A DNA stretch of 64,000 bases from Aquitalea magnusonii. Its GTDB lineage: Bacteria; Pseudomonadota; Gammaproteobacteria; Burkholderiales; Chromobacteriaceae. The notes below the pieces were generated by a model, which worked only from the letters and a program-made list of their open reading frames with translations, searched no databases and was not told the DNA's origin. Position numbers and translations under genes: made by a program. The DNA lies in assembly GCF_002217795.2 (NCBI RefSeq), contig NZ_AP018823.1:1736001-1800000 (forward strand). The letters are read 5' to 3'. Position 1 is the first letter of the stretch, and each line of letters opens with the position of its first letter. Shown one piece after another: positions 1,446 through 63,631 of this stretch.

Positions 1446-2603
1446 TTAGCAATTGACCAACTGGGCTGCCAGACGTGACAGGAAGGCATCGCAGGCAGCC
1501 AGTTGCTCCAGCGCCAGCCATTCGTCCGGCTGATGTGCCTGGGCGATATCGCCAGGACCGCATACCACGGTGGGAATGCCGCAGCGCTCGGCAAACAGCC
1601 CGCCTTCGGTGCCAAAGGCAATCTTGCGTGGCGGGGTGTGGTCGCCTAGCAAGCCCTGCACAAAGCGCACGACGTGGGCGTCTGGCGGGGTGAGCAGGCC
1701 CGGATAGCTGGTTTTTTCGCTGAAATCAAAGCCGCAGGCGGGGTCGACCGCCTGCATTTCCGGCTGCAACACCTGCAGGGCATGGTTGCGAATGGCGTCC
1801 AGCAGGCTTTGCGGCGGGTCTTCCGGCAAGTGGCGGATTTCAAAGTCGAACTGGCAGTGCGCGGGGATGATGTTCAGCGCGGTGCCGCCTTGCATGGTGC
1901 CGACGTGCAGCGTGCTGTAAGGCACTTCATACAAGGGATCGAACGGGCCGTGCTGGCGTCGCTGCCGCGCCAGACTGCGGATGTAGCTCACCAGTTCGGC
2001 GGCGTATTCCACCGCATTCACCCCGGCAGTCGGATTGCTGGAATGGCCTTCGTGCCCCCGCGCCGTCACCCGCCAGGCGGTCTTGCCCTTGTGGGCGGCC
2101 ACCAGTTTCATCTGTGTCGGTTCGCCAATGATGCCCATGGCGGGTAGTACCGGCAGCCCGCCCAGCACTTCCAGCAGGCGGCGCACGCCGATGCAGCCGA
2201 TTTCCTCGTCATAGGTGAAAGCCAGATGTACCGGAGTATGCAACTGGCTTTGCGCCAGGCGCGGTACCAGTGCCAACACGCTGGCCAGAAAGCCTTTCAT
2301 GTCGGCACTGCCACGGCCATAAGCCCGCTTGTCACGGATATCCAACTGGAAAGGGTCGCTGTGCCATGTCTGACCATCTACCGGCACCACATCGGTGTGT
2401 CCGGCCAGCATCACGCCGGGGCGGTCGGTGGGGCCGATGGTGGCGTACAGATTGGCCTTGCTCCCGTCTTCGTTTTCCACGATGCAGCTATCTATGCCAT
2501 AGCCTGCCAGATAGGTGCGGACAAAACTGATCAATTGCAGATTGCTCAGCCGGCTGGTGGTATCAAAGCCGATCAGCGTGTTGAGCAGGGTAAGCGATTC
2601 CAT
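1446..2603 (-). CDS. argE: acetylornithine deacetylase
   Basis: A 385-residue M20-family zinc peptidase matching ArgE in length and motifs. It hydrolyses N-acetylornithine to ornithine and acetate in arginine synthesis. Visible metal-site motifs include AGHTDVVPVDG (about 78-88), the GRGSADMKG segment (about 110-118), the catalytic YDEEIGCIG (about 140-148) and the C-terminal FGTEGGLF. I placed the start at the ATG at 2603; the frame is open further to 2681, but those residues are not family-like. It is transcribed divergently from a LysR regulator across 204 AT-rich bases. DapE-like paralogues share the fold, but the ArgE-type length and the GTEGG block favour ArgE. Confidence 0.9.
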   Translation of the reverse strand: MESLTLLNTLIGFDTTSRLSNLQLISFVRTYLAGYGIDSCIVENEDGSKANLYATIGPTDRPGVMLAGHTDVVPVDGQTWHSDPFQLDIRDKRAYGRGSADMKGFLASVLALVPRLAQSQLHTPVHLAFTYDEEIGCIGVRRLLEVLGGLPVLPAMGIIGEPTQMKLVAAHKGKTAWRVTARGHEGHSSNPTAGVNAVEYAAELVSYIRSLARQRRQHGPFDPLYEVPYSTLHVGTMQGGTALNIIPAHCQFDFEIRHLPEDPPQSLLDAIRNHALQVLQPEMQAVDPACGFDFSEKTSYPGLLTPPDAHVVRFVQGLLGDHTPPRKIAFGTEGGLFAERCGIPTVVCGPGDIAQAHQPDEWLALEQLAACDAFLSRLAAQLVNC

Positions 2604-2807
2604 GGCGTGTATTCCGGTGAGGCGCAGGAGCGGAGGGCGTGTGTGCCAGTGGTCTGGCATTTTACACCCGGTGATTGGCAATAAGCCGCTGGCCGGGCAT
2701 TGTTTTTGCTGTACCTGCCAGGGCGGAGCCGGTTGACAAGGCCAGTGTAGCCAGCCACATTTAATACCAAAAATATTATTATTTTTTTAGTTGGATAGAT
2801 AAAAATT

Positions 2808-3710
2808 ATGCAATACACCCTGCGGCAACTGGCTTACCTGGTGGCAGTGGCCGACCACGGCAGTGTGACTGCGGCAGCCAATGCCCTGTACACCTCGCAG
2901 CCGGGGATTTCCAGCGCCATCGCCCAACTGGAGGAGCAGTTCGGCCTGCAGTTTTTCATTCGCCACCATGCCAAGGGCGTGTCGCTGACGCCCGCCGGGC
3001 AAAGCTTTGTCGCGGTGGCGCGCAACCTGCTGGCGCATGCGGACGACCTCAGCCAGCATGCCAGTGCGCTGAGCCAGTCCTTGCAAGGCACGCTGGCGCT
3101 GGGTTGCTTCACCACCATTGCCCCCTTGTTTCTGCCGCGCCTGCTGGCCGCCATGCGCGAGTCCTACCCCGATATCACGGTGCAGCTGCATGAAGGCGAT
3201 ACCGGCCAGTTGCAGCAGGCACTGCTCAGCGGGCAGACCGAGCTGGCCTTGCTGTACGACCTGGATCTGGCCCCCAGCCTGTACCGGCAGACGCTGCAAA
3301 CCGTCTTGCCTTACGCCGTGCTGCCGGCCAGTCATCCGCTGGCCACGCAAACGGCAGTGTCACTGCATGATCTGGCTGATTTACCCATGGTGTTGCTGGA
3401 TTTGCCACATAGCCGGGAGTATTTCCTGTCGGTATTCCGTCTGCACAATCTGGAAGCACGGGTGCGCCACAAGACGGTGAGTTTTGAACTGGTGCGTGGC
3501 CTGGTGGCGGCAGGCAACGGCTATGCGCTGCTGAACCTGCGCCCGCAAACCCGGCAGTCCTATGCCGGTGATGCCCTGGTGTACCTGCCGATTGTGGAGG
3601 ACGTGCCTGCGCTGAATATCGTGCTGGCCTGGCCGCAAGAGCTGCGCCTGACCCGCCGCGCCGAGGCCTTTGTCTCGCTGTGCGAGCAGAGCATCAGCCG
3701 CTTGGGTTGA
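2808..3710 (+). CDS. LysR-family transcriptional regulator
   Basis: A 300-residue LysR protein. The N-terminal winged helix-turn-helix is clear (LRQLAYLVAVADHGSVTAAA, then SQPGISSAIAQLEEQFG at residues about 31-47), followed by a periplasmic-binding-like effector domain. It lies between divergent argE and a co-directional PotD/PotF-type binding protein that starts 128 bases downstream. Control of that binding protein is the simplest guess. Upstream, a very AT-rich stretch (about 2760-2800) would suit its own promoter. The ligand is unknown. Confidence 0.9.
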   Translation: MQYTLRQLAYLVAVADHGSVTAAANALYTSQPGISSAIAQLEEQFGLQFFIRHHAKGVSLTPAGQSFVAVARNLLAHADDLSQHASALSQSLQGTLALGCFTTIAPLFLPRLLAAMRESYPDITVQLHEGDTGQLQQALLSGQTELALLYDLDLAPSLYRQTLQTVLPYAVLPASHPLATQTAVSLHDLADLPMVLLDLPHSREYFLSVFRLHNLEARVRHKTVSFELVRGLVAAGNGYALLNLRPQTRQSYAGDALVYLPIVEDVPALNIVLAWPQELRLTRRAEAFVSLCEQSISRLG

Positions 3711-5818: not shown

Positions 5819-7186
5819 TCAGGCCAGCAGGCCGGCCAGATTGCTGGTGGATTGCTGCATTTGCGCCAGGGTGGCGTTCAGCGTGGTGTATTGCTGCAGA
5901 TAGGATGCGCGCAATGCGTCCAGATTGGTCTGGATTTCCGTCTGATGGCTGGTTTCGTCGGTAATGCTCTGGTTCAGGTCGTTCTGTTTGGTCACGACAA
6001 TGCCGGTCGGCCCCAGCAGATTATTGATGGCGCTGTTGAAACGGTCGGCAAAGCCGGTACTGCTGCTGTTGCCAAACAGATTGGCCACGGCGCTGGGGTT
6101 GCTGGTCAGCGCCTTGTTGAAGGCGGTCTGGTCCAGCGCGAGGGTGCCGTCTTTTTGCAGGGAAATGCCGATCTGCGACAAATAGGCGTAGGAGGTGGCG
6201 GCATTGACGCCAGCCTCTGGTGTCTGTAGCACGCCGGATAGCTGATCCTGGATGGACAGCAGCGAGTCGTCGCCCTTCATGTCGCCGGTAAAGGCGCTGT
6301 TCACCGTGCTGTGTACCTTGTTATAGGCATCGACAAAGCCTTGCAGGCTGCTGGCGATGCCGCTGGTGTCTTGCGTCATGCCGATGCTGACCTGGCCGGC
6401 TTTTTCCAGGGTGACCGAGGCACCGCTGATGACGCCGGTCAGGATATTGCTGCTGGAGGAGACATTGACGCCATTGACCGTGAGCAAGGCGTCGCTGGCA
6501 GCAAACGATTCGCTGGCCGCCGTGCTGCTTTGCTGCAGGCCGGCCAGGGTGTTGCCGCTGGTATTGCCGCTGTCACTGCCGCCGGATGTCACGCTGAAGG
6601 CATTGGCCGAGCCGGAATTGGCCGAGGCAATCACCAGCGAATAATTGCCGTTGTATTGCACGATGGAGGCATTGACCCCGGCATTGGCTGCATTGATGGC
6701 GTCCGAGATGTTCTGCAGGCTTTCGCCGCCGCTGCCACCGTTGTTGAGGTTTACCGTAGTGCTGGTGCCGGCCACGCTGAAGGTGAGCGAGGCGGGCACG
6801 CCGCTGAGGGCCGTGCTGGCGCTGGTGATGGGCTGGCCGCTGCTGTTTTGGTCAAACACCAGTTGGCGTGCCTGGGCCAGTTTGCTGACATTAAGCTGAT
6901 AGGTGCCGGCAATGCCGCCGCTGCTGGTACTGACCGCGGCGATGGTGCTGTCCGAGCTGCTGGCCTTGTAGGTTTGCAGAAAGGCTCCGGATGACAGGCT
7001 GCTGACTGATGTCTGCAAGGCGGACAGGGCGGAACTGATCTGGCCCATGTCGCTGAGGTCTGTCTTGTAGGTGGCAACCTTGTTCTGGCTGTCGGTGAGC
7101 GGCTGTTGCTCTACGGACATCAGTTGGCTGACGATGGACTGTACATCCAGCGGGCCGGCGGTGGTGGTGATGGATGCTGAACTCAT
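5819..7186 (-). CDS. fliD: flagellar hook-associated protein 2 (filament cap), paralogue 1
   Basis: A 455-residue FliD. The N-terminal D0 segment (GPLDVQSIVSQLMSVEQQPL, residues 11-30) and a C-terminal coiled coil (QNDLNQSITDETSHQTEIQ and the LRASYLQQYTTLNATLAQMQ helix) flank a Ser/Thr/Gly-rich variable middle. FliD caps the flagellar filament and guides flagellin folding. It is exported by the flagellar type III system, so it lacks a signal peptide, and it has no Cys. AGGAGAACAGC precedes the ATG at 7186. It lies 157 bases downstream of a second fliD copy on the same strand. No fliS or fliC is adjacent. Confidence 0.92.
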   Translation of the reverse strand: MSSASITTTAGPLDVQSIVSQLMSVEQQPLTDSQNKVATYKTDLSDMGQISSALSALQTSVSSLSSGAFLQTYKASSSDSTIAAVSTSSGGIAGTYQLNVSKLAQARQLVFDQNSSGQPITSASTALSGVPASLTFSVAGTSTTVNLNNGGSGGESLQNISDAINAANAGVNASIVQYNGNYSLVIASANSGSANAFSVTSGGSDSGNTSGNTLAGLQQSSTAASESFAASDALLTVNGVNVSSSSNILTGVISGASVTLEKAGQVSIGMTQDTSGIASSLQGFVDAYNKVHSTVNSAFTGDMKGDDSLLSIQDQLSGVLQTPEAGVNAATSYAYLSQIGISLQKDGTLALDQTAFNKALTSNPSAVANLFGNSSSTGFADRFNSAINNLLGPTGIVVTKQNDLNQSITDETSHQTEIQTNLDALRASYLQQYTTLNATLAQMQQSTSNLAGLLA

Positions 7187-7343
7187 GCTGTTCTCCTTGC
7201 TGTCTGCGGGAGGGCAGACGCGCCCTGACAGGCTCTGCCTGCATTATCGGGCGGAACAAGGAGCAGCTTGATGGCAAAGCCTGGTTAAAAGATGTTGCCA
7301 ACTGTTAAGGTTGTCACGAATTGTCAAACAGGCGGCTGGCGAC

Positions 7344-8777
7344 TCAGCTAGAACCGGAAGCAGAGGACGAGCCGCTTGAGCTGACACCAGCCATCAGGCC
7401 GGACAGATTGCTGGTGGATTGCTGCATCTTGGCCAGCGTGGCATTCAGCGTGGTGTACTGGCGCAGGTAGTTGGCCTGCTTGTCGCTCATCTTGGTTTGC
7501 AACTGGTTCTGATGGGTGGTCTCATCCGTTACGTTCTGGTTCAGATCATGTTGCTTGGTCACGACGATCCCCGCAGGTCCGAGCAGATTGTTGATAGTGG
7601 CGCTAAAGCGGTCGGCAAAACCGGTATTGCTGCTGTTGCCAAACAGATTGCTCACTGCAGCGGGTTTGCTGCTGAGCGCCTTGTTGAAAGTGGTTTGATC
7701 CAGCGAAAGGGTGCCGTCTTTCTGGATGGCAATGCCCACCTGGGACAGATAGGCATAGGAGCTGACCGGGTCGGCAGCGCTGACCGGGGTTTGCAGCACC
7801 GCGCTTAGCTGGTTGCGGATGGAGGTGAGTGCCGCATCGCCCTTCATGCTGCCGCCCGCTGCATTGTCCAGCGCGCTCTGTACCTTGTTGTAGGCATCGA
7901 CAAAGCCCTGCAGCTTGCTGGCAATGCTGCTGTTGTCCTGTGTCAGGGTAATGGAGGCTGTGCCGGTTTTCTGCAGCCCGAGGGTGACGCCGCCAATCAC
8001 ATCGCTGACGGTATTGCTGCTGGAAGATACGTACACGCCATTGACGGTGAGCGAGGCGTCGCTGGCGTCGTTGGATTCGCTGATGGCGGTATCACTTTGT
8101 TGCAGCCCGGCCAGGGTGTTGGCGCTGTTTGCACTCAGGCTGCTGTCGGTGCCGCCGGCGCTGATGCTGAAGGCATTGTCCGAACCTGCTTCAGCCGAGG
8201 CCAGCACCAGCGAGTAGCTGCCCTTGTATTGCACGATGGAGGCATTGACGCCGGCACCGGCGGCATTGATCTTGTCGGCGATGTCTTGCAGGGTGACGTT
8301 GGCTGGTGTTGTGGTGGTGCTGCTTGCCGGCTCGCGCAGTTGCACGGTGGTGCTGTTGCCTGCCACCTCAAGCGTCAGTGCATCCGGCACATTGCTCAGT
8401 GCCGTGCTGGTACTGCTGATGGCCTGGCCGTCGGAGGTGGTGTCGAAAACCAGTTGGCGCGGTTTGGCCAGTTCTTCCACTTCCAGTTGGTAGTTGCCGG
8501 CGATGCCGCTGCCATTGGTGTCCACCGTGGCAACCGTGGTGTCCGAGCTGCTGGCTTTCAGGGTGTGCAGGAAGTTGCCCGATGCCAGACCGCTGACCGA
8601 GGTTTGCAGGCCGGACAGGGCGGAGCTGACCTGGCCGATATCACTGAGTTTGCTGTTAAAGCTTTTCAGCTTGCTCTGACTGGCGGTGAGCGGTTGTTTT
8701 TCCACCGTCATCAGCTGGCTGACAATATTCTGTACGTCTAGCGGACCCGCCGAGGTGGTAATGGATGCGCTGCTCAT
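7344..8777 (-). CDS. fliD: flagellar hook-associated protein 2 (filament cap), paralogue 2
   Basis: A 477-residue FliD closely related to the copy downstream. The first 35 residues are nearly identical, and the C-terminal coiled coil (LRQYTTLNATLAKMQQSTSNL) is shared. The central domain differs and includes an insert (about 150-160) and a Ser/Gly-rich tail of about 14 residues that the other copy lacks. Its role is the same: capping the filament tip. The two genes probably arose by tandem duplication. Spacing of 157 bases with no clear terminator allows co-transcription, although the downstream copy has its own strong ribosome site. The ATG at 8777 has a weak site. Confidence 0.92.
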   Translation of the reverse strand: MSSASITTSAGPLDVQNIVSQLMTVEKQPLTASQSKLKSFNSKLSDIGQVSSALSGLQTSVSGLASGNFLHTLKASSSDTTVATVDTNGSGIAGNYQLEVEELAKPRQLVFDTTSDGQAISSTSTALSNVPDALTLEVAGNSTTVQLREPASSTTTTPANVTLQDIADKINAAGAGVNASIVQYKGSYSLVLASAEAGSDNAFSISAGGTDSSLSANSANTLAGLQQSDTAISESNDASDASLTVNGVYVSSSSNTVSDVIGGVTLGLQKTGTASITLTQDNSSIASKLQGFVDAYNKVQSALDNAAGGSMKGDAALTSIRNQLSAVLQTPVSAADPVSSYAYLSQVGIAIQKDGTLSLDQTTFNKALSSKPAAVSNLFGNSSNTGFADRFSATINNLLGPAGIVVTKQHDLNQNVTDETTHQNQLQTKMSDKQANYLRQYTTLNATLAKMQQSTSNLSGLMAGVSSSGSSSASGSS

Positions 8778-57441: not shown

Positions 57442-58692
57442 TCAGGCTTCTGCCGGTGCAGTCAGGCCGTATTCCTGCGGGAAGGTGTGCATGGAGCTTT
57501 TCACCACGGTGACAGCACCGTCGATCAGCCCGCAGCGGCCGCTGCCGGGCAGGATTTGGCACAGGTGTTGCAGCGCGTCCAGGTCGGCATGGCTGTGGCG
57601 CCCGCCGTCCACCCGGTCCAGCAGGCGGGCCAGTTGGAAGGTGCCGCATTTGCAGGACGGGCATTGGCCGCAGGAGCCCTTGGCAAAGAAGTCGATGTAT
57701 TCGGCCACCTTGCGGATGATGCTGCTGCCTTCGGAGATGACAATCATCGCACCGGTACCCAGCCGCGAATGGCGCAGCCATACCGAGTCAAAGTCCAGTG
57801 CCACGTCCAGGTCGCGCGCGGTAAGCAGGGTGTTGGACGGGCCGCCGGTAAACACGGCCTTGAAGGCCTTGCCCTGCAGCATGCCGCCGCCGTAGTGGAA
57901 CACCAGTTCCTGCAGGCTGGTGCCCATGGGCAGCTCGTACAGGCCGGGGCGCAGCACGTCGCCTGACAGCGAGTACAGCTTGGTGCCACCGGCCTTGCCC
58001 ACGCCTAGTGCGCGGTACCACGCGGCACCATGGCGCAGGATGTGGCTGACATTGGCCAGGGTTTCCACATTATTGATCAGCGTGGGCTGGCCGTTGATGC
58101 CTTGTTCCGCCGGGAAGGGCGGTTTTTTGCGCGGGAAGGGGAAGCCGGCTTCCAGCGAGGCCACCACCGCGGTTTCTTCGCCACCGATATAGCGGCCGGA
58201 GCTGGCCACCACCTTGATGGCCAGCGGGTGTCCCAGCGCGGCGGCCAGCTTGTCCAGCCATGGGCTGTCCTGCCATTGGCTGACCGCCAACCGCATATGC
58301 TGCAGGCTTTGGCCCTGGTGCGGGTTGATATAGAAAATGACGCAGGCAGCGCGCACCGCCAGTGCGGCAATCAGCGCGCCTTCCACCACCTGATGCGGCG
58401 AAGCGCTGAGCAAGGTGCGGTCCTTGAAGGTGCCAGGCTCATCTTCATTGCCATTGCACACCACGTATTTGTTATCGCCCACCGCATTGGCGGTGGCTTC
58501 CCATTTGCGCCAGGCCGGGAAACCGGCCCCGCCCATGCCGCGCAGGTCGGCATCGGCAATCTGGCGGATGATGGTGGTGGGGGCGTTGAGGGCGGCTTGC
58601 AGGCCAAGGCCGCCACCGGCCTGCAACCAGGCGGCCAGATCCGGGCCTACCTGTAGCGCAGGGTTGAGCAGAACCTGATTGAGTTTTTCCAT
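57442..58692 (-). CDS. NuoF-like NADH-binding flavoprotein (51-kDa subunit type)
   Basis: A 416-residue protein with all the NuoF/HoxF-type signatures. GMGGAGFPAWRKW (about 52-64) binds FMN, CNGNEDEPGTFKDR (about 79-92) is the NADH site, then GGEETAVVASLEAGFP, and INNVETLANV. The [4Fe-4S] ligands are CGQCPSC and the later GRCG. It should take electrons from NADH (or give them to NAD+). It lacks the NuoE part. It is the third gene of a trio with an Fe-S protein and a fumarate-reductase-like flavoprotein, and it is not part of a complex I gene set. Confidence 0.92.
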   Translation of the reverse strand: MEKLNQVLLNPALQVGPDLAAWLQAGGGLGLQAALNAPTTIIRQIADADLRGMGGAGFPAWRKWEATANAVGDNKYVVCNGNEDEPGTFKDRTLLSASPHQVVEGALIAALAVRAACVIFYINPHQGQSLQHMRLAVSQWQDSPWLDKLAAALGHPLAIKVVASSGRYIGGEETAVVASLEAGFPFPRKKPPFPAEQGINGQPTLINNVETLANVSHILRHGAAWYRALGVGKAGGTKLYSLSGDVLRPGLYELPMGTSLQELVFHYGGGMLQGKAFKAVFTGGPSNTLLTARDLDVALDFDSVWLRHSRLGTGAMIVISEGSSIIRKVAEYIDFFAKGSCGQCPSCKCGTFQLARLLDRVDGGRHSHADLDALQHLCQILPGSGRCGLIDGAVTVVKSSMHTFPQEYGLTAPAEA

Positions 58693-58704: not shown

Positions 58705-60327
58705 CTAGACGCGCGGGCCGGTGGGGCGCTGCAGTTTCAGCCGTGCATCGCCGGGGTAGAGCAATGGTGCTTGCTGGCTGCTGTCCAGTCCGGCCAGGGC
58801 CAACTGGCGTTGCCAGCGGTAGACGTGTTCGATGCCGCCACGTTGTGGTGGCAGGGTGGATTTGTGACGGGCGGCCTGGGCCAGGCGGGCGGCCTGGCGA
58901 CCGGCACGGCGGCCAAAGGCCAGGATGTCCAGCAGCGCATTGCCCATCAGCCGGTTGCGGCCATGGATGCCGCCGGTGATTTCCCCGGCGCACAGCAGGC
59001 CGGGTACGGCGGTCTGGCCGTTGCCGTCGATGATGACGCCACCGTTCTGGTAGTGCAGGGTGGGGTAGATCAGCATGGGCTCGCGGCTGGGGTCGATGCC
59101 GCATTTGTCGGCCAGATGCTGGAGTGCGGGCAGGCGGCTGGCCAGGTCGGCCCCCAGTTGCCGGGTGTCCAGGAACACGCCGATCTGACCATTGCGTTCG
59201 ATGCCGCGTCCGGCGGCGCATTCGCGCAGGATGGCGGCGGTGACGACATCGCGCGGGGCCAGTTCTTCGACAAAGCGCTCGCCCAGCCCGTTGACCAGCA
59301 AGGCCCCGCCGGAGCGGGCGGCTTCGGAGATCAGCCCGCCACGCAGGCGCTGTGGCCAGGCCACGCCGGTGGGGTGGTACTGGAAGGCATCCATGTCACG
59401 CAAGCCGGCACCGATGCGGTAGGCCAGCACCAGCCCGTCGGCGGTGGCACCGTAGTGATTGGAGGTGGGGAAGTCCTGCAGATGCAGCCGGCCGCAGCCT
59501 CCGGTGGCCAGAATGGTCTGGCGGGCGGAAACCACGATGAAACGCTGGTATTCCAGATCGTACAGCACGGCACCGGCACAACTGCCGTCTTCATGCGACA
59601 GCAGTTCCACTACCGGACAGCGGTTGAGCTGGGTGATGGCAGGTTCCAGCTCTACCGTTTCGCGCAGCACCCGCATCATCTCCAGCCCGGTGTAATCGCG
59701 ATAGCACAGGATGCGCGGCTGGCTGCAGCCGCCCGCCTGCTTGTAGCGCAGCTTGCCGCCATCGGTGAACGGGTCTTCCAGATCAAAGTGCATGCCCAGC
59801 TCAATCAGCCAGCGAATCACACCGGGTGCATCACTGGCCATCTGCGCCAGCAATTGCGCATTGGCCGCCTGGTGTCCGCCGCGCATGGCATCGTCAAAGT
59901 GTTGTTGCGGGCTGTCATTGGCGGCCAGTGCGGCCTGAATGCCGCCTTCGGCCATCACGGTATTGCTGTCGCCCAAGCGCAGCTTGCTGGCCAGGATCAC
60001 CTCGGCACCGCTGCGCGCGGCGGTCAGCGCGGCGGCGGCACCGGCACCACCACCGCCAATCACCAACACCTCGGTGCTGCGCTGTTCGGCACCGGCCAGG
60101 TCAAAGCCGTCGATCAGCGCATTGCTTTGCAGCAGCGCCGCCAGCCGCGGGTGGCAGGGCTGGCCACGGCTGGGGCCGATCTGCAGCAGGGTGCTGGCAT
60201 TGTCGGCATTGTCCGGGTGGTATTGCGCCAGCAGCGCGCTGCGCGACAGGTCGGCCGGACGCAGCGCTGGCTGTGCATGGGCGTGCAGATTGCTCAGGGC
60301 CTGCAGATAGGGAATGGCGCTAGTCAT
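58705..60327 (-). CDS. fumarate reductase/succinate dehydrogenase-like flavoprotein
   Basis: A 540-residue FAD protein of the SdhA/FrdA/NadB family with an N-terminal extension of about 85 residues. The FAD motif is VLVIGGGGAGAAAALTAARSG (about 87-107), then SNTVMAEGGIQAAL (about 120-133). Active-site motifs of the family are kept: QYHPTGVAW (His), LAPRDVV (Arg), LHYQNGG (His) and GRNRLMGNALLDILAFGR. So a dicarboxylate substrate such as fumarate/succinate or an analogue is likely. Partners are an Fe-S subunit and a NuoF-like protein, with no membrane anchor, so the complex should be soluble. It overlaps the Fe-S gene by four bases. Confidence 0.92.
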   Translation of the reverse strand: MTSAIPYLQALSNLHAHAQPALRPADLSRSALLAQYHPDNADNASTLLQIGPSRGQPCHPRLAALLQSNALIDGFDLAGAEQRSTEVLVIGGGGAGAAAALTAARSGAEVILASKLRLGDSNTVMAEGGIQAALAANDSPQQHFDDAMRGGHQAANAQLLAQMASDAPGVIRWLIELGMHFDLEDPFTDGGKLRYKQAGGCSQPRILCYRDYTGLEMMRVLRETVELEPAITQLNRCPVVELLSHEDGSCAGAVLYDLEYQRFIVVSARQTILATGGCGRLHLQDFPTSNHYGATADGLVLAYRIGAGLRDMDAFQYHPTGVAWPQRLRGGLISEAARSGGALLVNGLGERFVEELAPRDVVTAAILRECAAGRGIERNGQIGVFLDTRQLGADLASRLPALQHLADKCGIDPSREPMLIYPTLHYQNGGVIIDGNGQTAVPGLLCAGEITGGIHGRNRLMGNALLDILAFGRRAGRQAARLAQAARHKSTLPPQRGGIEHVYRWQRQLALAGLDSSQQAPLLYPGDARLKLQRPTGPRV

Positions 60328-60971
60328 GCCTCGCTCCTTGTGTTGTCTGCCAGGGTGTTGATGGCCATTTCGCCTCTGGCTTGCTGCTCAAGTCGGCGCA
60401 GCAGATCGCCCGGACGCAGGTTCTGGATGGCCTGGGCGCGGCGCAGGTAGAGGCCGACATGATTGGGGCGGATGTTTTCCGGGCAGGCCAGCGTACACAG
60501 ATTGCACATGATGCAGGCATCAAACAGCGCGGCGGCGGCTTGCAGTTGGCCACTATTGGCCAGCGCAATGCCCTGTTGCACCGGGATGTGGCGCGGACAG
60601 GCGCGGTCGCAGCCGCTGCAGTGCCGGCATTGGCTGATTTCCGGAAAGGTTTGTTGCAGTTGTGGCAGCGCCTGCCAGCCGTCGCGCAAGTCCTGCGGGC
60701 GGTAGCGGTGTACATGATCAGGCAGGTAGTAGTCGATGAAGCTGACTTGCATGCCGTCCTCCACCACGGTTTCACAGGCCAGTCGCGTTTCGGCACTGCG
60801 TTCGCCCGCCTTGCGTACCAGGCAGCGACAGGAGCCGCATACCCCCTGGCCCATGCAGCCGATATTGGCGGTCAGTGCTTCTTCGCCTTGCAGGCGGGTA
60901 TGCAGGATGGAGTTGCCGGCTGCAGCGTCCACCACCTTGCCATCGATGCTGATGCGGATGGTTTCACTCAT
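60324..60971 (-). CDS. Fe-S subunit (2Fe-2S plus two 4Fe-4S), fumarate reductase-like
   Basis: A 215-residue electron-transfer protein. The N-terminal ferredoxin domain has a [2Fe-2S] motif (GCMGQGVCGSC, and a further Cys in TRLAC). The C-terminal domain has two CxxCxxCxxxCP motifs (CRHCSGCDRACP, about 115-126, and CIMCNLCTLACP, about 152-163) for two [4Fe-4S] clusters. SdhB/FrdB has a [3Fe-4S] in place of one of these; here the second looks like a full [4Fe-4S] site, as in TfrB/HdrC-like subunits. It is the first gene of the trio; the flavoprotein start overlaps its stop as ATGA. Confidence 0.92.
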   Translation of the reverse strand: MSETIRISIDGKVVDAAAGNSILHTRLQGEEALTANIGCMGQGVCGSCRCLVRKAGERSAETRLACETVVEDGMQVSFIDYYLPDHVHRYRPQDLRDGWQALPQLQQTFPEISQCRHCSGCDRACPRHIPVQQGIALANSGQLQAAAALFDACIMCNLCTLACPENIRPNHVGLYLRRAQAIQNLRPGDLLRRLEQQARGEMAINTLADNTRSEA

Positions 60972-61140
60972 GGGATTTCCTTTGCTGTGGTTCTGGTCAT
61001 CACGCCGCCTGCCGCTGCGGGCGTAATGGCCTGTCCGTTATCAGGGTCTTTGCAAGGAGCGTGCCATGCGGCATGTGCTGTGCAGGTATCTGAAAACAAA
61101 GGAAAAAGCAGGATTCAGCCTGGCGTCAGGGCGATGTAGT

Positions 61141-61246
61141 GACGGAATTCCGTCGCTTTGCCGCGGCCGGATGGACGGAATTCCTGCCATTCAGCCTGGC
61201 TGGCGGGTCAGCCGGGACATGCATAAAAGTACGGATTTCCGTACTT
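61141..61246. promoter_or_regulatory. cluster of ACGG(W4)CCGT operators between the redox trio and the AEC transporter
   Basis: Three related palindromes lie in the 424-base gap (60972-61395) between divergent genes: GACGGAATTCCGTC (61141-61154, perfect), a degraded ACGGAATTCC (61175-61184), and AAGTACGGA-TT-TCCGTACTT (61227-61246, 9-bp arms). They share the core ACGG-W4-CCGT, which returns twice at 62758-62791. The spacing and repetition fit cooperative binding of a dimeric regulator, perhaps the GntR protein encoded close by. The rest of the gap shows no gene. Confidence 0.65.
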
Positions 61247-61395
61247 GGTGCGCGACAGATTCGCGGCTATCCGCACTTCATGGTTTTTGTGTGGCTTATT
61301 CCTCAATAAAAACAGTGGTTTGTATTTGTTTTTTCGTGGCACGGGGCTTGCTCTGCAATCGCGAGACAAACATTACAGAGATGAGGAGCAAGATC

Positions 61396-62337
61396 ATGTG
61401 GGGAACCATGAGCACGGCACTGCTGCCGGTGGTGCTGTTGATGTTATTGGGCTGGTTTGGCGGCCAGCGTGGTTATTTCCGCCAGGCGGATGTGGGGGTG
61501 ATGGCAACGCTGGTAATGCGTTATGCCTTGCCGTGTTCATTGTTTATCGGCGCTTTGAAAACGCCGCCGGAGCGCATCCAGAACCTGCCATTCATTCTGT
61601 GCATGACTTTCGGCTTTGTCGGCACCTATGTGCTGGCCTTGCTGGCCGGGCGTTATTACTACCGCCAGGGGCTGAAAACCAGCGCCATCCAGGCGCTGGT
61701 ATGTACTTTCCCGGACATGGCTTATTTTGGCGCGCCCATCTTGCAGCAGGTGTGCGGGCCGCAGGGTTTTATTGCGGTGCTGATCGGCAATCTGATCACC
61801 AGCTTCATCATCCTGCCGCTTACCATCGTGCTGTGCCGTTGCGGCGAGATGTCCGATGCCGGCGCAGATGACGGCGTGGTGGCCATGCTCAAGCAAAGCC
61901 TGGTGAAAACCCTGTCCAACCAGATTGTCTGGCTGCCGATTCTGGGGGTGATCCTCAGCTTCAATCACCTGCATCTGCCCGCTGCGGTACAGGAAAGCGT
62001 GGACATGCTGGCCAAGGCGGCCGGCGGGGTGTCGCTGCTGGCGCTGGGCCTGATGTTCTGCGGGGAAAAACCCAGCTTCAACGGCCATGTGGTGGGCAAT
62101 GTGGCGATGAAGAACTTCCTGCAACCGGCCCTGATGTTGCTGGGCATCTTCCTGTTTGGCGTGGATGCCGAGTTTGCCAAGCAGGCGCTGATTGTCGGGG
62201 CGGTGCCCACCGCCATTGCCGCCTCGATGTTTGCCGTGCGCAACCAGACCTATGCACTGCATGCCTCGCACTCGGTGCTGGTGGGTACGGTGATTGGCGT
62301 GTTTGGTGAAGCGGCGCTGATTTACTTCATGGTGTGA
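61396..62337 (+). CDS. AEC-family auxin-efflux/malonate-type carrier
   Basis: A 313-residue membrane protein with about 10 helices in two inverted halves, typical of the AEC family (MdcF/MleP type). GWFGGQRGYFRQADVG (about 18-33) opens it, and LVCTFPDMAYFGAPILQQVCG and LIGNLITSFIILPLTIVL match the conserved middle. Relatives carry dicarboxylates such as malonate or malate. It is divergent from the redox trio with shared operators, so it probably brings in that complex's substrate or exports the product. GAGGAG precedes the ATG at 61396; the frame is open to 61066 without support. Confidence 0.9.
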   Translation: MWGTMSTALLPVVLLMLLGWFGGQRGYFRQADVGVMATLVMRYALPCSLFIGALKTPPERIQNLPFILCMTFGFVGTYVLALLAGRYYYRQGLKTSAIQALVCTFPDMAYFGAPILQQVCGPQGFIAVLIGNLITSFIILPLTIVLCRCGEMSDAGADDGVVAMLKQSLVKTLSNQIVWLPILGVILSFNHLHLPAAVQESVDMLAKAAGGVSLLALGLMFCGEKPSFNGHVVGNVAMKNFLQPALMLLGIFLFGVDAEFAKQALIVGAVPTAIAASMFAVRNQTYALHASHSVLVGTVIGVFGEAALIYFMV

Positions 62338-62383
62338 TGGCGACTGCACGCTCAGGCTGGCGCTGCCAGTCTGAGCGGCAGCA

Positions 62384-62410
62384 ACAAGGCCCGGCATTGC
62401 CGGGCCTTGT
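62384..62410. terminator. terminator between the AEC transporter and a small membrane protein
   Basis: ACAAGGCCCGGC-ATT-GCCGGGCCTTGT is a perfect 12-bp stem between two convergent genes. The T-run is short on both sides. Confidence 0.65.
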
Positions 62411-62457
62411 CATGTGTGCAGGGTATTGCCTGTGGGGATGGCGTGCGCCGGGATGGC

Positions 62458-62643
62458 TCAGTGTGCGGCAGACAGCCTGATGAACAGCAGTCGCACCAGC
62501 AGATAGGTGGCGGCATTGCCCAGCGTCATCAGCAGCAGCACCGTGGGCAGGGACAGCGTGTCCAATGCGTCCAGCGGGTTGCTGCCCAGTTGGCGGGCCA
62601 GCAAGGAAGAGCCAATCAGGCTGAGCAGTAGTTTGAAGGTCAT
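62458..62643 (-). CDS. small two-helix membrane protein
   Basis: A 61-residue protein with two hydrophobic segments (about 3-16 and 32-56). GGAAAG lies upstream of the ATG at 62643. I do not recognise it. Its upstream region holds the paired ACGG-W4-CCGT sites (62754-62795), so it may belong to the same regulon as the redox trio and AEC carrier. Its function could be as an accessory of the carrier, but that is inference. Confidence 0.55.
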   Translation of the reverse strand: MTFKLLLSLIGSSLLARQLGSNPLDALDTLSLPTVLLLMTLGNAATYLLVRLLFIRLSAAH

Positions 62644-62753
62644 GGCAGCAGCTTTCCGTAACGCAGATGTCGCCAGCTATTGCAAAAGCCGTGCCTGGTT
62701 TTTTATTTGCAGGTAATTGAAAAACAAGGATATTTTTTATTGCACTTTGGCTT

Positions 62754-62795
62754 GCTGACGGTTTTCCGTGTTTTGGCGTACGGAAAACCGTCAGC
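62754..62795. repeat. 16-bp perfect inverted repeat made of two ACGG(W4)CCGT sites
   Basis: GCTGACGGTTTTCCGT (62754-62769) and its exact complement (62780-62795) are separated by 10 bases. Each arm contains one ACGG-W4-CCGT core (62758-62769 and 62780-62791). It lies between the GntR stop and the small membrane protein start. As RNA it would fold into a hairpin, but no T-run follows, and the match to the upstream operators favours a protein-binding role. Confidence 0.75.
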
Positions 62796-62815: not shown

Positions 62816-63484
62816 CTAGGCCGGTTGGCGGGCTTGCAAATGCAGCAGAATGCTGTGTCCACCGTGCAGGATGTCATCGCCAATGGCGCTGGCCGCTGCA
62901 GCACCATCCTGGCGACGGATGGCCTCCAGCACCGGGTAGTGGTAGTCGATCATGTCGCTGCCGCCTTGCTGGTACACCGCGGCAATCAGCGGCCCCATCT
63001 GCAGCCAGATGCGATACAGGATGCCCTGTAAAAACGGTAGGCCGGCTATTTCCACCAGCGCAAAGTGAAATTGCTGATTCAGCTCGCAGCCAAGTGCGAT
63101 GTCCTGTACGCGCATGGCGGCGGCATTGCGGCTGACAATGTCTTCCAGCCGGGCAATGGCGCTGGCGTCTGCCTTCTGCGCAGCCGTTTCCGCCGCCAGC
63201 CCTTCCAGGCGGATGCGAATGGCGCGGATTTCCAGATAACGCTCCACCGTCATATAGGGCACGCGGATGTCACGCGGCGACTGCATGGTGAGCGCCTGCT
63301 CCTGCACCAGACGCAGGATGGCATCGCGCACCGGGGTGACGCTGGTGCCCAGTTGCTCGGCCAGATCGCGTATTTTCAGTCGTGCGCCAGGTTGCAGCCG
63401 CCCCTGGATCAGCGCCTTGCACAGCATCTGATACACCGTGCTACCCAGATTGTCGTGTTCCAGTGTGTCCAGTTGGTAATCCAT
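62816..63484 (-). CDS. GntR-family regulator (FadR subfamily, FCD domain)
   Basis: A 222-residue regulator. The N-terminal winged helix includes KIRDLAEQLGTSVTPVRDAI (about 37-56). The all-helical FCD domain (about 80-215) contains the metal-binding residues expected for this subgroup: Asp near DIALGCELNQQFHFAL, and later His residues. Ligands are usually carboxylic acids, which suits the AEC carrier and redox trio nearby. I took the ATG at 63484; the frame is open to 63529. It is divergent from an SDR gene with a palindrome between them. Confidence 0.9.
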   Translation of the reverse strand: MDYQLDTLEHDNLGSTVYQMLCKALIQGRLQPGARLKIRDLAEQLGTSVTPVRDAILRLVQEQALTMQSPRDIRVPYMTVERYLEIRAIRIRLEGLAAETAAQKADASAIARLEDIVSRNAAAMRVQDIALGCELNQQFHFALVEIAGLPFLQGILYRIWLQMGPLIAAVYQQGGSDMIDYHYPVLEAIRRQDGAAAASAIGDDILHGGHSILLHLQARQPA

Positions 63485-63552
63485 GGCGTGGGGTGCAAGT
63501 AAGGGCAAAGCTGCATGGTAACACCGCACTTGCCAGAGTCAAATGCAACAAA

Positions 63553-63566
63553 TATGATGCATCATA
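63553..63566. promoter_or_regulatory. candidate operator between the GntR and SDR genes
   Basis: TATGATGCATCATA is a perfect 14-bp palindrome in the 147-base gap between divergent genes, 69 bases upstream of the GntR start. It is of the type bound by FadR-subfamily regulators and could be an autoregulatory site. Confidence 0.5.
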
Positions 63567-63631
63567 AATTTGGCTGAATCGGGCAAGGGCGGCAGCATCT
63601 GCCAATCTGCCTCAGAACCAGGAGCGCCATC

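Follow-up and report, generated by a model that had tools for sequence, protein, structure and literature searches.

Here we report that a palindrome, ACGGWWWWCCGT, repeated in two intergenic gaps of the Aquitalea magnusonii genome probably marks enhancers for a DctD-type activator at three sigma-54 promoters, the most likely activator being a response regulator encoded elsewhere in the genome and called DctD2 here. The promoters precede a redox trio, an AEC carrier and a 61-residue membrane protein (Table 1). The preliminary description, made from the letters alone, took the palindromes to define an unnamed regulon and pointed to the neighbouring GntR protein for footprinting; the regulon stands, "unnamed" was too strong because the site is of the same type as published DctD enhancers, and the regulator is now likely to be of the DctD type, with some chance left for an AauR-like paralog.

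Table 1. Features of the locus and the genes of the candidate regulatory pair. Positions are those of the window unless another locus (L045) is named.
Feature	Position	Strand	Remark
NuoF-like NADH-binding subunit	57442..58692	-	
Flavoprotein subunit, related to SdhA/FrdA and L-aspartate oxidase	58705..60327	-	
FeS subunit of redox trio, 2Fe-2S and 4Fe-4S domains	60324..60971	-	Pfam
Sigma-54 promoter of redox trio, TGGCACGCTCCTTGCA	61051..61066	-	11/11 consensus letters; in 8/8 trio-bearing genomes
U1, predicted primary enhancer site of trio promoter (ACGGAATTCCGT)	61142..61153	.	exact CGG-N4-CCG core, 81-82 bp from promoter, 8/8 genomes
U2, weaker partner of U1, 33 bp apart (ACGGAATTCCTG)	61175..61186	.	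at most one mismatch at 33 bp in 7/8 genomes; two in G003
U3, predicted primary enhancer site of AEC promoter	61231..61242, arms 61227-61246	.	exact core, 100 bp from promoter, 8/8 genomes
U4, partner of U3 (GCGGCTATCCGC)	61263..61274	.	exact core at 32 bp in 8/8 genomes
Sigma-54 promoter of AEC carrier gene, TGGCACGGGGCTTGCT	61337..61352	+	10 or 11 of 11 letters; kept in 8/8 genomes
AEC-type membrane transport protein	61396..62337	+	PF03547
61-residue membrane protein	62458..62643	-	no Pfam or NCBIfam match
Sigma-54 promoter of 61-residue membrane protein, AGGCACGGCTTTTGCA	62681..62696	-	10/11 letters; in 8/8 genomes
Predicted enhancer site of 61-residue protein gene, distal from its promoter (ACGGTTTTCCGT)	62758..62769	.	
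Second palindrome of the same gap (ACGGAAAACCGT), 22 bp from the first	62780..62791	.	further from promoter in plus numbering; first of pair read on minus strand
ATATGATGCATCATAA, probable own operator of gntR, outside this regulon	63552..63567	.	unchanged in 8/8 genomes; single ATGATGCATCAT in window
DctD2, DctD-type response regulator	L045 8328-9647		REC-AAA+-HTH
DctB-type sensor, dCache histidine kinase	L045 9651-11549		beside DctD2

Within the window, the whole stretch of 64 kb (C1:1736001-1800000) analysed out of the 4.85-Mb genome, we recovered all four exact copies noted earlier, the degraded copy now called U2, and the 9-bp arms ascribed to one copy, which is U3. A further site with an exact core, U4, had been overlooked. 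The impression that the full palindrome occurs nowhere else in the window was right, and the density is far from chance: shuffled sequence gave a mean of 0.01 copies per window and at least four copies in 0 of 100 shuffles. The proposed scan of the genome went the other way, as the 10 exact copies comprise four at the locus and six outside it, and these six amount to a random frequency when set against five for the pattern read backwards. Four of the six lie within long open reading frames (L001, L002, L003, L009), and one is intergenic (L010), outside any 100-codon frame, with sigma-54 matches within 250 bp of only 9/11 letters. The last (L008/L049) precedes a chemoreceptor gene, 100 bp from a sigma-54-like match and also inside a 117-codon stop-free frame. 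The idea that the exact string marks a large regulon across the genome was rejected, the chemoreceptor copy being the only one off the locus that is linked to such a promoter; the distribution is a dense local cluster with a few linked sites.

A gapped pattern (ACGGN4CCG 40-100 bp from GGCN7TTGC, together with its counterpart) was also scanned in 10 genomes of the genus. Among the matches listed, G000 gave 21 and 25, where the reversed control had 9 and 7, G002 gave 14 against 11, and G004 and G007 each gave 11 against 11, while G009, which lacks the trio, gave 21 against 9, again among the matches listed. Given an excess in a trio-less genome and little or none in three that carry the trio, this signal is not specific to the regulon.

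The two gaps contain three sigma-54 (-24/-12) promoters that were not reported in the preliminary description, each downstream of its sites as is typical of DctD-regulated promoters and each agreeing with the consensus at 10-11 of 11 letters. The pattern searched was TGGCAC-N5-TTGCW with up to one mismatch; in the window's genome the trio and AEC promoters fit it exactly and that of the 61-residue protein has one mismatch. Such a match is not rare in the window (9 matches against 7.6 expected), so that a match alone is weak; the case for the promoters lies instead in their position and conservation, all three recurring in the eight genomes that carry the trio. The genome has a single rpoN gene.

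A search of 61 genomes of the family detected the FeS gene in eight, all of one genus; the two genus members without it are one genome that is 61% complete and one that is complete. Promoters and the CGG-N4-CCG core recur in all eight, and the motif stands upstream of the same genes in each, as had been suggested for a check in relatives. Across the aligned trio/AEC gaps, 16 of the 18 UAS-core columns (three cores) and 21 of the 22 sigma-54 columns are invariant, compared with 92 of the 365 remaining columns; invariance falls to 6 of 12 columns for the central four bases of the UAS and 1 of 6 for the outer letters. The constant element across relatives is thus CGG-N4-CCG. The earlier statement that cores vary only in their central four A/T bases holds in the window's genome but not in relatives, where the outer letter varies as well (ACGG, GCGG, TCGG). 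The suggestion of selection was supported: the motif has the character of a regulatory site under selection, common to the trio/AEC and small-membrane-protein gaps.

The sites are arranged in pairs, two at each of five promoters in the window's genome, with core centres 56-115 bp upstream of the promoter 16-mers, as is usual for enhancers. Upstream of the 61-residue protein gene an exact core lies 89-90 bp from the promoter in 8/8 genomes, and its partner is 22 bp away in G000, G006 and G007 (exact) and in G003 (one mismatch), and 33 bp away, again exact, in G001, G002, G004 and G005. This change between two and three helical turns looks like turnover of sites with helical phase kept. The pair upstream of a malic-enzyme gene, considered below, is spaced by 33 bp in 8/8 genomes, its partner carrying one mismatch, and the chemoreceptor pair has the same spacing at two of three loci (G000 and G003, with no pair in G002). 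In shuffled upstream regions an exact core with a partner at 22, 32 or 33 bp, spacings chosen after the data had been seen, arose in 0.05-0.3% of cases. The IHF consensus WATCAANNNNTTR was matched exactly in 12 and with at most one mismatch in 29 of 35 spacers between UAS and promoter (four promoters in each of eight genomes, with three chemoreceptor loci added); since spacer sequences are related, and only 2/5 spacers of the window's own genome have a site with at most one mismatch, an involvement of IHF is only suggestive.

Lying just 3' of the gntR stop, the pair in the 61-residue protein gap could also be read as a terminator or RNA hairpin after that gene (62754-62795), with the other copies as coincidence or repeats. 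The 16-bp inverted repeat described earlier is indeed perfect here (62754-62769 with 62780-62795, around a 10-base loop), and a strong stem is possible. However, the pairing of copy with copy is complete in only one of the eight genomes, whereas one palindrome core is kept in all of them, and no T run follows the repeat on either strand; the conserved GC-rich stem and T run of an intrinsic terminator were not found together. We excluded this reading on the absent T run and the unconserved pairing, and give it next to no weight.

An operator function for the GntR/FCD protein (gene at 62816-63484) is also very unlikely. In its favour, GntR regulators of the FCD type recognize short palindromes, and gntR adjoins one site pair and is conserved beside the trio and AEC genes in 8/8 genomes. 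Against this, the gene has an upstream palindrome of its own, ATATGATGCATCATAA, which is unrelated in sequence, so that the palindrome expected in common between the sites and the regulator's own promoter region was not found. The ACGG sites lie downstream of gntR, at an enhancer distance from sigma-54 promoters that simple repressors do not need, and the same sites occur at the malic-enzyme promoter, where no gntR was seen in the G000 stretch examined (a non-exhaustive search). The earlier candidate was left unsupported and was dropped on account of the differing conserved palindrome. ATATGATGCATCATAA is the probable autoregulatory operator of gntR and the natural candidate for GntR binding, and a footprint of the ACGG sites with this protein would therefore probably be negative.

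A DctD-type activator fits the arrangement of enhancer pairs and sigma-54 promoters, and the genome encodes such a regulator beside a DctB-type sensor (the L045 pair). Among 17 PF00158 matches in the genome, ten of them strong and none inside the window, two of the strong ones are receiver-AAA+-HTH proteins adjoining dCache histidine kinases. DctD2 has NtrC-type proteins as its best full-length relatives in the PDB, while its receiver, compared with receiver-only entries, matches S. meliloti DctD at 3.9e-40 and the next unrelated entry at 5.9e-20. The periplasmic domain of the sensor has just three PDB matches at E<=0.001, two named DctB and the third, 3by9 ("Sensor protein"), which we take to be Vibrio DctB. 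NCBIfam gave no name to any of the six of the ten sigma-54 activators that were scanned, the matches shown falling below cut-off. DctD2 (L019) reads GAFSGA at the position of what is presumably the sigma-54-contact motif of such activators, GAFTGA.

The neighbours of dctD2 are the sensor gene and genes for an AspT-type transporter (PF06826) and a malic enzyme (PF00390, PF03949). An ortholog with 96-100% identity is present in exactly the 8 trio genomes of the 61, the best matches in the other 53 reaching at most 65%. The trio and the dctD2-sensor-AspT-malic enzyme cluster share one 17.5-kb stretch in G001 and G002; dctD2 and the trio are ~20 kb apart in G004, ~33 kb in G003 and 250 kb in the window's genome, and are on different contigs in G005, G006 and G007. 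As the eight genomes form one clade, this co-occurrence may represent few independent events, perhaps a single one. Coexisting Aquitalea strains in pitcher-plant communities are reported, in the available part of the source (PMC8884728), to carry SNPs in a dctD protein, which may or may not be DctD2.

The other regulator of this architecture, the AauR-like paralog L017, likewise adjoins a dCache kinase, and there is a small but real chance that the sites are bound by another of the genome's ten strong sigma-54 activators, chiefly this one, with or without DctD2. The HTH tails of L017 and DctD2 agree at 21 of 37 positions, making cross-binding possible, and the AauR site of the acidic amino acid system AauS/AauR of Pseudomonas, TTCGG-N4-CCGAA in the accessible portions of the sources (PMC7386598, PMC7962211), has the CGG-N4-CCG core and the activator class in common with the present system. 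The outer letters differ, being TTCGG...CCGAA there and ACGG...CCGT at the locus, where no palindrome is of the AauR type. Such a site does occur close to L017: a carrier-like gene there has upstream TTCGGCTTTCCGAA, an exact AauR-type site, and this favours DctD2 for the ACGG sites. Moreover, L017-like matches of ~60% identity are found in genomes without the trio, such as G009. This carrier-like gene (ORF 6521-7855) resembles DctA/GltP by eye, and upstream of it (L044) the AauR-type site is followed by TGGCATGATTACTGCT near the ORF start.

Further predicted targets of DctD2 lie outside the window. The malic-enzyme promoter next to dctD2 combines TGGCACGCYAGTTGCR and GTRCGGACTTCCGCAC in 8/8 genomes, the same promoter type and site pair as at the locus. 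At the chemoreceptor gene (MCP, L049 5788-7401) two exact-core sites, 33 bp apart, precede TGGCATGGATATTGCG, which has 9/11 letters. The pair and promoter are kept in the G003 ortholog (87% identity), and the G002 ortholog (76%) has a similar promoter and no exact core; close orthologs were found in these 3 genomes only, with matches of at most 49% in the others. The chemoreceptor is probably a target, but one shared by few species and therefore less certain. Elsewhere in L045 (3187-3290), a sigma-54-like AGGCACGAATATTGCA, with ACGGTGCGCCGT ~90 bp upstream, precedes ORF 2565-3155, perhaps one more target of DctD2, perhaps one of a different activator.

The genes at the locus give these promoters a possible metabolic context. 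The best PDB relatives of the flavoprotein are succinate dehydrogenase and fumarate reductase flavoproteins and L-aspartate oxidase, and the third subunit of the trio is similar to NuoF and to the NuoF relatives found in hydrogenases and NfnB. FeS protein, flavoprotein and NuoF-like protein are encoded together at 20 of the 22 named FeS loci, the other two lying at a contig edge. Propionivibrio dicarboxylicus is among the carriers (71% FeS identity), and in Pseudomonas flavescens a PF00939 carrier gene directly follows that for NuoF, so that the trio's setting fits C4-dicarboxylate chemistry, with substrate and direction as our interpretation. The 61-residue protein had eight relatives in a search of 5.8 billion proteins, Aquitalea being the single named source, and its gene was recovered by simple scan in 7/8 genomes and by tblastn in the eighth (A. 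pelogenes).

The wiring is more restricted than the trio. All five Aquitalea among the named trio loci (82-91% FeS-protein identity) have the promoters and cores, and none of the 17 loci outside Aquitalea, searched over as much as 700 bp of upstream sequence (only 276 bases at L100), has both a sigma-54 match of at least 10/11 letters and a palindromic CGGN4CCG. The trio thus occurs in Propionivibrio, Pseudomonas, alphaproteobacterial and other genomes (L084-L100) without sigma-54/UAS wiring of this kind.

Based on these observations, we suggest how the circuit might operate. The DctB-like membrane sensor would detect a C4-dicarboxylate, for example malate or fumarate, and the phosphorylated response regulator would bind the helically phased pairs 56-115 bp upstream. 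Looping of the DNA, perhaps aided by IHF, would bring its AAA+ ring to the sigma-54 polymerase and activate the promoters of the AEC carrier, the 61-residue membrane protein and the trio, which is probably a fumarate-reductase-like enzyme linked to NADH. Also under its control would be the operon for malic enzyme and the AspT-type transporter next to dctD2 and, probably, one chemoreceptor gene. In the most specific form of the proposal, which we hold tentatively and regard as somewhat doubtful, the trio is a soluble NADH:fumarate reductase of three subunits (FeS, FrdA-like and NuoF-like), and a DctBD-sigma-54 circuit governs it together with an AEC carrier for C4-dicarboxylates, a small membrane protein that is new, malic enzyme with AspT and a chemoreceptor. 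Malate/fumarate dismutation would then be inducible, and from species to species the enhancer pairs would move between spacings of 22 and 33 bp with phase kept. The sites, promoters, spacings, conservation, co-occurrence and regulator family can be read from the DNA; from them we infer which protein binds, what the inducer is, that the DNA loops and in which direction the enzyme works.

Switches of this kind are already known and their mechanism is established; what appears to be new is the set of genes under control, and a literature search covering few subscription journals found no description of this regulon in Aquitalea. What was an anonymous palindrome now points to a regulon that can be tested, with candidates for its regulator, sensor and promoter class, and a redox trio that recurs across Proteobacteria gains a regulatory context, that of C4-dicarboxylates. 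The eight related genomes offer material on the turnover of enhancer pairs with helical phase kept.

Besides AauS/AauR, two known systems come closest to this proposal. The flavoprotein of the trio aligns with SdhA/FrdA of the complex II family over most of its length and, when aligned to SdhA structures, keeps QYHPTG, SEAARSGG, PRD, PTLHY and GRNRL, whose catalytic roles we assume to be those of the active site. It differs in reading NTVMAEGG for HTVMAEGG, an Asn thus aligning with what we take to be the covalent-FAD histidine, and the trio has a NuoF-like NADH subunit and, among its three genes, no anchor subunit.

The regulatory side resembles the DctB/DctD-sigma-54 systems of S. meliloti (dctA), Vibrio and Pseudomonas in its REC-AAA+-HTH activator and DctB-like dCache kinase. 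As far as the available part of the source goes, the S. meliloti DctD site is TGTGCGgaaatCCGCACA (PMC11077940), and the likeness extends to paired CGG-N4-CCG sites with GTACGG/GTGCGG arms upstream of -24/-12 promoters. The core of the DctD consensus UAS, TGTGCGgnnntCCGCACA, is present in 8/8 genomes, with GTACGG or GTGCGG arms at U3 and the malic-enzyme gene and looser ones at U1, U2 and the 61-residue protein gene. A non-exhaustive search found no dctA under DctD2. The present system differs in that the preferred outer base is A, not G, and in its predicted targets, which are the trio, the AEC carrier, the 61-residue protein, malic enzyme with AspT and perhaps a chemoreceptor.
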